From a virus, in IMG/VR virus record IMGVR_UViG_3300044625_000541, positions 1 through 38,412 of that record: DNA of 38,412 nucleotides; one strand, 5' to 3'. Positions 27,593 to 30,959 of this stretch are shown piece after piece. Numbering within the stretch: position 1 is the stretch's first letter; the number at the start of each line of letters is the position of its first letter. Both the position numbers and the translations under genes were made by a program. The notes under the pieces are model-generated. The model was given only the letters and a program-made list of their open reading frames with translations, had not been told where the DNA came from and did no database searches.

Positions 27593-28393
27593 ATGGGAAA
27601 TATATCTGCTATTCAATGGACTAACTCAACTTGGAATGTCGCTCGTGGCTGTACCAAAGTTGACGAAGATTGTAAGTATTGCTACATGTACCGCGATTCA
27701 TTCGATGGTAGCCGTTACAATCCGCTTGAGATTGTAAGAACAAAAACTGTTTTCAATTTGCCGTTAAAGTTGAAAGAACCATCATTGATATTCACTTCAT
27801 CATTGACTGACTTCTTTCATCCGGCAATTGATAGCTACAGAAATGAGGCTTGGGACATTATCCGAAAATGCCCACAACACACATTTCAGATTTTAACGAA
27901 GCGACCTGAGCGGATTAATGACCACTTACCGAGCGATTGGGGGCAAGGATGGGATAACGTTTGGTTAGGCACAAGCGTAGGCAGCCCAAAAGGTATGCAC
28001 CGGATTTACGATTTATTGACGGTGCCAACTAAAGTAAGATTCCTTTCAATGGAGCCATTGCATGAGCGTGTAGATATGAATATTGATATTATTGACTTAA
28101 TAAATATTCACTGGGTAATAATTGGTGGCGAAAGCGGAAATAAAAACGGCAAGTACAAATACCGCCAATGCAGAATAGAGTGGATTGAAGAACTGATAAA
28201 AGACTTCACGCCAACTACTGCGATTTTTGTCAAGCAACTCGGCACATATCTGGCAAAAGAAATGAAGTTATCAGACCGTCATGGAGGCAAGATGTCCGAA
28301 TGGCCTGACCACTTACAAATTAGACAGATGCCACAAATAATCGGCACGGATGCAAGGGCTTTGGCTGATCGTGAGAAGCAAACTGACCGATAA
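27593..28393 (+). CDS. phage Gp37/Gp68 family protein (DUF5131), radical-SAM-like (266 aa)
   Basis: The start at 27593 (MGNISAIQWTNSTWNVARGC) is where family similarity begins. C20, C27 and C30 (CTKVDEDCKYC) match the conserved Cys pattern W-N-x-x-x-G-C-x-K-x-x-x-x-C-x-x-C-Y of this family, thought to hold an iron-sulfur cluster. Later motifs are SLTDFFHPAID, QILTKRPERI, VWLGTSVGS, FLSMEPL and WVIIGGESG. The family is common in phages; its reaction is not established. It sits in the cassette island. Confidence 0.88.
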   Translation: MGNISAIQWTNSTWNVARGCTKVDEDCKYCYMYRDSFDGSRYNPLEIVRTKTVFNLPLKLKEPSLIFTSSLTDFFHPAIDSYRNEAWDIIRKCPQHTFQILTKRPERINDHLPSDWGQGWDNVWLGTSVGSPKGMHRIYDLLTVPTKVRFLSMEPLHERVDMNIDIIDLINIHWVIIGGESGNKNGKYKYRQCRIEWIEELIKDFTPTTAIFVKQLGTYLAKEMKLSDRHGGKMSEWPDHLQIRQMPQIIGTDARALADREKQTDR

Positions 28394-28471
28394 CGTGTTT
28401 TCGCTTGCCGTCATGTGGGGCAATCGAAGCACTAATTTTCAAACCACCTACAAAATTCAATAGTAGCAAAA

Positions 28472-29335: not shown

Positions 29336-29358
29336 GTATATGAGTAGTAAAATTTGCG
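29336..29358 (+). repeat. outer inverted repeat, left arm, of the methyltransferase unit
   Basis: The arm begins GTATATGAGTAG and ends ATTTGCG. It matches the reverse complement of 30111-30133 with one difference in 23 bp. It lies within the second copy of the cassette-boundary repeat. Confidence 0.85.
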
Positions 29359-29362
29359 TATC

Positions 29363-29381
29363 CGAACTATCTATGAAATAC
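29363..29381 (+). repeat. 19-bp direct repeat left of the methyltransferase unit
   Basis: The word GAACTATCTATGAAATAC recurs in the same orientation at 30083-30100, just outside the right inner inverted repeat. This layout resembles a target-site duplication around an inserted unit. Confidence 0.85.
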
Positions 29382-29386
29382 ACACT

Positions 29387-29404
29387 AAAAATATTTTTAA
29401 ATGC
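29387..29404 (+). repeat. inner 18-bp inverted repeat, left arm
   Basis: AAAAATATTTTTAAATGC is the perfect reverse complement of 30057-30074. It contains the ATG of the methyltransferase frame and is followed by GAAGCGGGGGAATTG, the shared 5' element. Confidence 0.9.
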
Positions 29405-30042
29405 GAAGCGGGGGAATTGAATTACTGAATTGTGATTGTATGGACTATATGTCCGGTATTGATGATAAGTTCTTTGACTTGGCAATAGTGGACCCTCCAT
29501 ACGGAAATAATTTGTCCGGTGGGCGGTCCTCTAAAAATGGATGGAACCAAAGTATTGATTGGGATAAGTGTAACAAAGGTTGGAATTTAGAAATACCAAA
29601 ACCTGAATACTTTGCAGAACTTCAACGAGTTTCAAAAAATCAAATAATTTGGGGCGGTAACTATTTTGCAAATCTATTACCACCTTCTGAGTGTTGGTTA
29701 ATTTGGGATAAAGGACAAAGGGATTTTAGTTTAGCAGATGGTGAAATGGCTTGGACTTCTTTTGATAAAGCCATGAGGATAAAAACCATACACAGGGCGG
29801 TTGCAAATCAAGAAACTAAAATACACCCAACTCAAAAGCCCGTGAAATTATACCAATGGATTTTAAATCAATTTGCAAAAGAAGGGGATTTGATTTTGGA
29901 TACTCATTTAGGAAGTGGCTCAATTGCAATTGCTTGTAGCGAGTATAAAGTAAATCTTACCGCCACTGAAATTGATAAAGATATATATGACGCGGCCTGT
30001 ATTCGAGTATCTCAATCACTTGCACAAATCTCAATGTTTTAA
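29401..30042 (+). CDS. DNA methyltransferase in an inverted-repeat cassette (213 aa)
   Basis: This is a stand-alone DNA N6-adenine or N4-cytosine methyltransferase. DPPYG is at residues 31-35 and the SAM motif DTHLGSGS at 167-174, the beta-class order. KIHPTQKP and IIWGGNYFANLLPPSECWLI are close to the catalytic core of the ParB-fused enzyme at 15471-16613, so the two are homologous. The ATG at 29401 lies in the left inverted repeat; an ATT or later start cannot be excluded. It probably protects phage DNA or switches its methylation. No restriction enzyme is adjacent. Confidence 0.88.
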   Translation: MRSGGIELLNCDCMDYMSGIDDKFFDLAIVDPPYGNNLSGGRSSKNGWNQSIDWDKCNKGWNLEIPKPEYFAELQRVSKNQIIWGGNYFANLLPPSECWLIWDKGQRDFSLADGEMAWTSFDKAMRIKTIHRAVANQETKIHPTQKPVKLYQWILNQFAKEGDLILDTHLGSGSIAIACSEYKVNLTATEIDKDIYDAACIRVSQSLAQISMF

Positions 30043-30056
30043 CCTTGTGCGGTGGG

Positions 30057-30074
30057 GCATTTAAAAATATTTTT
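30057..30074 (+). repeat. inner 18-bp inverted repeat, right arm
   Basis: GCATTTAAAAATATTTTT follows the methyltransferase stop by 14 bp, preceded by TGTGCGGTGGG, a counterpart of the GCGGGG at the left side. Confidence 0.9.
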
Positions 30075-30081
30075 CTTTCAC

Positions 30082-30100
30082 TGAACTATCTATGAAATAC
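30082..30100 (+). repeat. 19-bp direct repeat right of the methyltransferase unit
   Basis: TGAACTATCTATGAAATAC repeats 29363-29381 in the same orientation (18 of 19 bases). Confidence 0.85.
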
Positions 30101-30110
30101 CAAACTCTCC

Positions 30111-30133
30111 CGCAAATTTTATTACTCATATAC
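30111..30133 (+). repeat. outer inverted repeat, right arm, of the methyltransferase unit
   Basis: The arm starts CGCAAATTTTATTAC and pairs with 29336-29358 with one mismatch in 23 positions. Confidence 0.85.
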
Positions 30134-30136
30134 GGT

Positions 30137-30239
30137 GTTATGTGCAGTATTGCGGGAGCGGTGGGGAAAAGCCGTGCGGGCGGGCTTGTGCGTGCCTCCG
30201 TGCGGAAGGCTTTTATTGAGGAGCAATATTGCACATAAC
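30137..30239 (+). repeat. gene-less 103-bp palindromic unit between GTTATG and CATAAC
   Basis: GTTATGTGCAGTATTGC and GCAATATTGCACATAAC pair over 17 bp with one mismatch. An inner stem AAAAGCC/GGCTTTT continues the fold. The unit begins with GTTATG and ends with CATAAC, as an integron-type cassette would, but has no gene. This and the following attC-like site fill the 324-bp gap 30043-30366, which has no protein frame I believe. Confidence 0.7.
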
Positions 30240-30331
30240 GTTTTGGGGCTTTGTGTCTGTTTGCCCCTTGCACAAAGTTTCAAGTTACCACAAATGTTGA
30301 CGGGGCAAATAGCACAAAACCGCTGTTATGC
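30234..30331 (+). repeat. attC-like imperfect palindrome before the MT-A70 gene
   Basis: The site begins CATAACG and ends GTTATGC. Internal arms TTTGCCCC (30260-30267) and GGGGCAAA (30302-30309) pair, and TTTTG with CAAAA extends the stem with unpaired bases, as in the attC recombination sites of integrons. The core words differ slightly from the consensus RYYYAAC/GTTRRRY. I infer a cassette recombination site. Confidence 0.55.
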
Positions 30332-30366
30332 GTAGTGGCGGTTAATTAACGATAAACTCAATTAGA

Positions 30367-30912
30367 ATGAAGAAATATAAAATAATTTATGCAGACCCTG
30401 CTTGGAAATACAACGACAAGCAAAATACACCTAAACTTGGAGGTGCTGTAAAACACTATCAAACAATGACAATAAAAGAACTTTGCAACTTACCTGTGAA
30501 GTGCCTTACAGAAGATAACGCTGTTTTATTTATATGGACTACAAGCCCACTACTTGAAGAAACATTTGCTGTAATAAAAGCGTGGGGCTTCAAATATAAA
30601 AGTAGTTTTGTATGGGATAAAATAAAACACAATATGGGGCATTATAACTCTGTAAGACACGAACTTTTATTGATATGCACCAAAGGAAGTTGCACACCTG
30701 AAATAAAGAAATTGTTTGATAGTGTTGTTTCAATAGAACGCACCGAACATTCAAAAAAACCAAAGTATTTTGCAGACCTAATTGATACGATATATCCGTC
30801 TGGAAACCGAATAGAATTATTTGCAAGGGACGTAAAGCAGGGTTGGGACGTTTTTGGTAACGAGGCAGAAGGGTCTGTCGATTTGGAAACGTATCGTAGC
30901 CATTACGCATAA
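30367..30912 (+). CDS. MT-A70 family adenine methyltransferase (181 aa)
   Basis: The enzyme is a DNA (or RNA) N6-adenine methyltransferase. DPAW at residues 10-13 is a variant of the catalytic DPPW. Other family landmarks are YQTMTIKELCNLPV, LFIWTTSPLLEETFAVIKAW, SFVWDKIKHNMG, RHELLLICTKGS and SKKPKYFADLIDTIYPSGNRIELFAR. The gene is bracketed by GTTATGC (30325-30331) and GCATAAC (30907-30913), and its stop TAA lies inside the right word, as in integron cassettes. Likely role is anti-restriction marking of phage DNA. Confidence 0.9.
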   Translation: MKKYKIIYADPAWKYNDKQNTPKLGGAVKHYQTMTIKELCNLPVKCLTEDNAVLFIWTTSPLLEETFAVIKAWGFKYKSSFVWDKIKHNMGHYNSVRHELLLICTKGSCTPEIKKLFDSVVSIERTEHSKKPKYFADLIDTIYPSGNRIELFARDVKQGWDVFGNEAEGSVDLETYRSHYA

Positions 30913-30941
30913 CAAGTTTATATCGGAGACTCCTTTTTAAC

Positions 30942-30959
30942 AGCCGTTTAAAAACGGCT
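30942..30959. terminator. bidirectional terminator between convergent genes
   Basis: AGCCGTTT-AA-AAACGGCT forms an 8-pair stem with a very short loop between the rightward MT-A70 gene and the leftward spanin gene. A second small hairpin with a T-run (GGAGACTCCTTTTT, 30924-30937) precedes it on the plus strand. Confidence 0.6.

Follow-up and report, generated by a model that had tools for sequence, protein, structure and literature searches.

What defines the boundaries of a DNA methyltransferase gene at the edge of a phage gene block, and what moves the gene, is the question raised by this locus. The window, namely the whole 38.4-kb stretch of DNA analysed here, is a tailed-phage record with terminase, major head and tape measure genes. 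Its genes lie mostly on the minus strand, and a plus-strand block stops at position 30913 with an MT-A70 methyltransferase gene as its last member. The product of this gene (30367..30912, plus strand) is an MT-A70 family DNA (adenine) methyltransferase, as the preliminary description had proposed. PF05063 is found at residues 4–166 (E 3e-24), and the product also matches PADLOC type II MTase (E 1e-51). A palindrome of ~85 nt lies 5' of the gene block and forms an attC-like hairpin body (30240..30324, plus strand) with a spacer, an L-type stem, inner arms TTTGCCCC/GGGGCAAA and a variable loop. The words from which integron-cassette boundaries had been proposed are indeed present: CATAACG at 30234–30240, GTTATGC at 30325–30331 and the two inner arms, and GCATAAC (30907–30913) overlaps the TAA stop codon (30910–30912) of the MT-A70 open reading frame. 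The preliminary description missed that the two ends of the gene block match each other. The 5' cassette end GTTATGCGTAGTGGC (30325..30339, plus strand), an R-type arm starting at 30325, and the 3' cassette end GCCATTACGCATAAC (30899..30913, plus strand), which overlaps the stop codon and finishes at 30913, are reverse complements with one mismatch, placed at position 11 as in relatives, and the inverted repeat extends over 16 nt with 94% identity (30324–30339 and 30899–30914). The observation of matched cassette-type ends around the MT-A70 gene is confirmed and is larger than first noted. An attC-like fold had also been expected. An R stem, a spacer, an L stem and a loop are present, but the palindrome folds only moderately better than shuffled sequences (z -1.8; -1.2 in a second test), neither value being decisive alone. 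Because a single fold with such a z value is no proof, the proof comes from comparison with relatives.

The MT-A70 gene is found at 98% protein identity in three other viral contigs (L005–L007). The block from GTT to AAC (30325–30913) is 93–96% identical in DNA to these contigs, and homology among the four phage contigs ends at the 3' cassette end: over the 150 nt past AAC, identity is 51–59%, compared with 52% for random sequence. The closest homologues thus keep the ends, the absence of which from other phages had been named beforehand as a sign against cassette boundaries. The hairpin body is common to the window and L007 only (91%), and L005 and L006 carry different hairpins of the same architecture. 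Because the four contigs with the MT-A70 block carry three different hairpin bodies, exchange also occurs at the inner R end. This is not predicted by a strict one-polarity integron and is a point against the model described below. Among the distant homologues inspected (at most 81% identity), such ends are found in L008 only, indicating that the MT-A70 gene is not always a cassette. A scan of bacterial genome contigs with MT-A70 yielded one Planctomycetes locus, which is without such ends.

The MT-A70 block is not the only unit of this kind in the window. A gene-less cassette, short and non-coding (30137..30239, plus strand), lies directly 5' of the MT-A70 hairpin and has matched ends GTTATGTGCAGTATTGC and GCAATATTGCACATAAC, which form a 17-nt inverted repeat of 94% identity (30137–30153 and 30223–30239). 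Its fold has a z value of -3.85, and none of 200 shuffles folds equally well. It is preceded by a cassette-like unit (29336..30133, plus strand) around an N6_N4 DNA methyltransferase gene (29401..30042, plus strand; PF01555, E 1e-16). The ends of this unit, GTATATGAGTAGTAAAATTTGCG and CGCAAATTTTATTACTCATATAC, form a 23-nt inverted repeat of 96% identity with a G/A mismatch of the same type, and its start word is GTAT, not GTTAT. Inside the ends of this unit lies a further inverted repeat of 18 nt, and a direct repeat of 18 nt, GAACTATCTATGAAATAC, occurs at 29364 and 30083. Further upstream, the stop codon of a DUF5131 gene (27595..28394, plus strand) lies within CGATAAC/G (the slash marks the boundary), a possible decayed cassette end for which no matching 5' end was found in the window. 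A hairpin-like sequence is seen 3' of this gene. GTTAT...ATAAC pairs with at least 10 complementary bases occur twice in the window; dinucleotide shuffles average 0.11 such pairs, and none of 150 shuffles has two. No tyrosine recombinase (PF00589) was found within the window. The segment 30914..30947 (plus strand) may represent the array end with a candidate attI-like junction, and homology to L201, a relative of the window phage, resumes at 30948. In L201, a different matched-end unit (2638–2731, reverse complement, beginning GTTGTTATCAACTGC) occupies the position of the MT-A70 cassette.

Cultured phages carry arrays of such units. When the palindrome was used for a DNA search, it matched 43 Flavobacterium phage records, which are Baltic Sea isolates, and in these phages 81–85% identical hairpin DNA sits 5' of a different methyltransferase cassette. 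The 11 arrays examined contain ~5–12 recognisable units each, with ends GTTANN...NNTAAC that are complementary over 9–10 nt. When a cassette of these arrays occurs in several contexts, its 5' hairpin is constant and its 3' neighbour changes right after ATAAC. The upstream hairpin therefore travels with the downstream gene, a polarity opposite to that of the canonical integron, and this linkage test led us to reject the reading that, in the Flavobacterium phages, the hairpin belongs to the preceding cassette. The GTT-to-AAC geometry first suggested for the window holds for the boundaries but not for the canonical polarity. Where the last unit of an array can be recognised, the array stops at ATAAC/TACAATATTACATG, and the last cassettes differ. 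No recombinase (PF00589) was detected in the Flavobacterium phages searched. Like the window, they carry at least two attC sites without an integrase, the arrangement called a CALIN, attC identity being judged by comparison. Two small annotated CDSs, lillamy gp008 (L069 3517–3624) and hattifnatt gp009 (L071 4028–4132), overlie hairpin bodies and are probably not genes.

An integron-integrase scan of array contigs revealed a tyrosine recombinase adjoining the end of the array in two viral contigs, of 59 kb and 362 kb. The 362-kb jumbo contig (L207/G005), which has a terminase gene, encodes its own integrase together with about ten arrayed cassettes. Upstream DNA was usable at 27 related viral loci, and in all of them the array stops ~50–100 nt before an Xer-type recombinase; the distance is mostly 51–52 nt and reaches 97 nt where the conserved part alone aligns. 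In the 4 kb on each side of the integrase, 124 matched-end units were counted upstream and 10 downstream. AAC is followed by a conserved attI-like sequence, TACTATATGTAAA or a variant of it, and the last cassettes differ. Because array, recombinase and attI-like site are linked in these relatives, complete integron-like elements exist. In the window, the attI-like site is putative; the flank of its array end, AAGTTTATATCGG, matches the conserved motif poorly and resembles the integrase-side sites only weakly. Terminase genes score above cut-off in 9 of 23 integrase-bearing contigs. A cultured phage, Polaribacter phage Leef_1 (L255, MT732473), has a complete platform of integrase, array end and units: four matched-end units lie upstream of the integrase, TATATACGC is found at the array end, and the integrase is 34% identical to that of G022. 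The integrase of Cellulophaga phage Ingeline has no array beside it and was excluded from the members.

The recombinases of these loci are proteins of ~268 aa. Their classification rests on profile scores, all of which are below the curated cut-offs; the best profile is XerA (NF040815), after which XerD, XerC and integron integrase score about equally. TIGR02249 is matched in two pieces, also below cut-off. Alignment with IntI4 (2a3v) likewise gives two pieces, between which ~47 residues are absent, so that the recombinase is without the IntI insertion. The predicted fold (pLDDT 87) is that of a tyrosine recombinase, with XerA (5hxy, 4a8e) as the nearest structure and an integron integrase structure next. 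R133, K158, H218, R221, H244 and Y253 are invariant among 25 integrases and are taken to be the catalytic residues of this family. The enzyme thus resembles XerA, XerC and XerD in its best sequence and fold matches and in its full catalytic set. Unlike these proteins, which act in chromosome dimer resolution, it is linked to cassette arrays.

The strongest alternative is that the arrays consist of ordinary integron cassettes, put together by a canonical IntI integron of a host and simply picked up by phages. CALINs with methyltransferases have been described in phages including Polaribacter phage P12002L, one attC site of which recombines with IntI1 (PMC9892861). Units of P12002L, too, have the end anatomy described here. 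As in a canonical integron, the integrase lies by one attI-like insertion point and is read away from the array, the cassettes hold one gene each, the hairpin consists of R stem, spacer, L stem and loop, and the start of a cassette is complementary to its own attC end. However, the adjoining integrase is of the Xer type, and the outer stem is ~15 nt compared with the 7-nt R box. GTTAT predominates as the core word, with T at position 5 in 50 of 84 internal cassettes, and the window has GTTATGC, so the departure from GTTRRRY observed at the outset was correct. Moreover, all scorable phage cassettes have their open reading frames directed toward attI and the integrase (80:0), the reverse of the canonical polarity. 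Capture of ordinary cassettes is therefore unlikely. The proposal of integron-type boundaries on a phage stands as to hairpin architecture and the movement of cassettes between replicons; it fails insofar as these are not canonical GTTRRRY/IntI cassettes.

The ends obey a pairing rule of 10 paired bases, an unpaired position 11 and then 3–4 paired bases. This rule was read from 27 array ends anchored by position and by the attI-like sequence, independently of complementarity. All 27 have an upstream partner with at least 9 complementary bases, compared with 21 of 688 (3%) when ends are swapped among loci. Pairing at positions 1–9 is a selection requirement in this set. Position 10 pairs in 85%, positions 12–14 pair in 70–85%, and pairing stops at 16. 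Position 11 is Watson–Crick paired in none of the 27, with G opposite T on the gene strand in 19. The units of the window show the same G/A mismatch, for instance between 30325–30339 and 30899–30913. Position 11 forms a G–T wobble on the gene strand and an A–C mismatch on the other strand, a possible basis of strand choice. Among matches overall, 50 of 120 lack a partner end; many of these are chance 16-mer matches in unrelated prophages, and some are real cassettes cut by contig ends. The 115 hairpin bodies have a median length of 118 nt and begin with G in 108 cases. They show R stem, spacer, L stem and loop, with strand asymmetry provided by the non-Watson–Crick position 11. The 60 of them that were folded have a mean z value of -3.6, and L-stem complementarity of at least 7 is found in 45% with their own arms versus 3% with swapped arms.

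These properties bear on a second alternative, in which the units are Xer/dif-type modules that recombine as double-stranded DNA, in the manner of the pdif modules known from Acinetobacter plasmids. A pdif site is ~28 bp long, conserved in sequence and has no long hairpin. The affinity of the recombinase to XerA, XerD and XerC and ends such as GCGCATAAC, reminiscent of an Xer arm, speak for such modules, and both systems move single genes by Xer-type recombination. An Xer-like tpnF even lies beside tet(X3) on pHH1107 (L253 4001–4729). This protein is 45% identical to the phage integrase; no array was found there and it was not counted. In contrast to conserved pdif sites, however, the arms of the present units vary without constraint, each being matched by a compensating partner (27 cassettes have 20 distinct 9-mers), and a folded single strand fits a hairpin of ~118 nt better than a double-stranded site does. 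We consider this explanation a little less probable than capture of ordinary cassettes.

Comparison of near-identical Flavobacterium phages reveals differences by whole single cassettes. These clean indels of 288–506 bp have boundaries ATAAC/G and are compatible with excision or insertion. A 439-bp cassette indel distinguishes lillamy and sniff from snork, hemulen and stinky, and its flanks are identical at 400 of 400 bases on each side (lillamy compared with snork and hemulen). Relative to mumin, indels of 342 or 412 bp occur at the array end. No target duplication was found at the single-cassette indels, including the 439-bp one. A transposon-like unit with terminal inverted repeats, either a MITE or a single-gene transposon moved by a transposase, would account for the inverted terminal repeats of 10–16 nt on each gene block. 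However, the missing duplication, the head-to-tail arrays, the conserved hairpins and the single conserved insertion site all speak against it, and it was rejected by the end-swap test, in which ends match within a cassette only and differ between neighbours; its probability is very small. Equally improbable is that the hairpins are terminators or regulatory elements and that genes are exchanged by homologous recombination, because, although phage genomes are mosaic and the hairpins intergenic, the junctions share only ~6 nt (ATAACG), many independent exchanges coincide to the base, and the adjoining integrase would be left unexplained.

Cassettes of this kind are also found outside phages. 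A DNA search of plasmids with the hairpin gave no match, and plasmid platforms were found later by a protein route. Flavobacteriaceae plasmids encode 42%-identical relatives of the recombinase. A Flagellimonas and an Arenibacter plasmid share the same backbone and carry different cassettes at an identical attI position followed by the integrase; the attI-like sequence after both arrays is identical, and erm(F) is present on one of the two. The erm(F) cassette has constant boundaries (L250 3622–4911, NZ_CP092416; also L256, L257, L258 and L259). Many Bacteroidota plasmids preserve its exact 3' end, and several, including those of Myroides, Sphingobacterium and Riemerella, preserve the two ends exactly, although the neighbouring genes vary. 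Truncated or interrupted copies also occur. The genes ere(D), tet(X2) and OXA-347 likewise lie between matched ends on Bacteroidota plasmids. Gene orientation in the plasmid cassettes is mixed, unlike that in phages. The suggestion that a phage could move such cassettes to and from host arrays is thus indicated for the platform by the platform-bearing plasmids, but not for the MT-A70 gene itself.

Taken together, the best explanation, to which we assign a probability of about 85% as a whole, is that the MT-A70 gene is the terminal cassette, adjoining the insertion site, of an integron-like array of a Xer-type recombinase on a Bacteroidota phage. A cassette consists of a gene block with self-complementary ends and one attC-like hairpin of ~85–120 nt. 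In this model, the single-stranded hairpin would present the GTT...AAC end region to the Xer-type tyrosine recombinase, which would swap cassettes at GTT...AAC and insert new ones where the array ends, at the attI-like site. In some phages and plasmids, the recombinase gene adjoins attI. No integrase is encoded by the window phage, and its array, like those of the Flavobacterium phages, would need a recombinase supplied in trans, perhaps from a co-infecting phage, a plasmid or the host. The cargo is mainly DNA-modifying enzymes, and a cassette swap should alter the protection of the phage against host restriction. In the integrase-bearing phages, the cargo includes C5 and N6/N4 methyltransferases, Mom proteins and an SspD-like PAPS reductase.

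Phage integrons as a kind are already known (PMC9892861). Integrons and CALINs have been published for 21 bacteriophages on the basis of canonical attC models (Qi et al. 2023, PMC9892861), and these CALINs, like the arrays described here, consist of gene cassettes with hairpin attC sites and methyltransferase cargo. The units of P12002L were matched by anatomy, not by the published attC site. That text does not mention a Flavobacterium phage, and the sections consulted do not describe reversed polarity, an Xer-type integrase, an attI-like site or the position-11 rule (PMC9892861). Neither integrons nor cassettes are mentioned by the discoverers of the Flavobacterium phages, who linked plating efficiency on one host to the presence of a specific methyltransferase (PMC7077304). 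In Bacteroidota, complete integrons have been reported in isolated cases only (IntegronFinder 2.0, PMC9024848). In the open-access papers searched, preprints apart, we found no account of an integrase platform of the Xer type, of a reversed polarity, of an end rule spanning 15 nt, of such units being abundant in flavobacterial phages or of erm(F) being one of the platform's cassettes. It is somewhat more likely than not that these elements constitute a separate Bacteroidota integron class, with an Xer-type integrase apart from IntI, its own end anatomy and a gene-toward-attI polarity in phages, which is encoded by phages and spreads modification genes, and that clinically important resistance genes on plasmids, such as erm(F), ere(D), tet(X2) and OXA-347, are unrecognised cassettes of it.

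Because Leef_1, with a complete element, and phages with integrase-less arrays are both in culture, the model is directly testable. An Xer-type enzyme doing integron-like work is relevant to the origin of integron integrases. If the model is correct, it would provide a mechanism by which erm(F) and other resistance genes spread as cassettes within Bacteroidota. It would also explain how phages of a very large phylum swap DNA-modification genes one at a time, and a cargo consisting mostly of such genes should aid phage escape from restriction.
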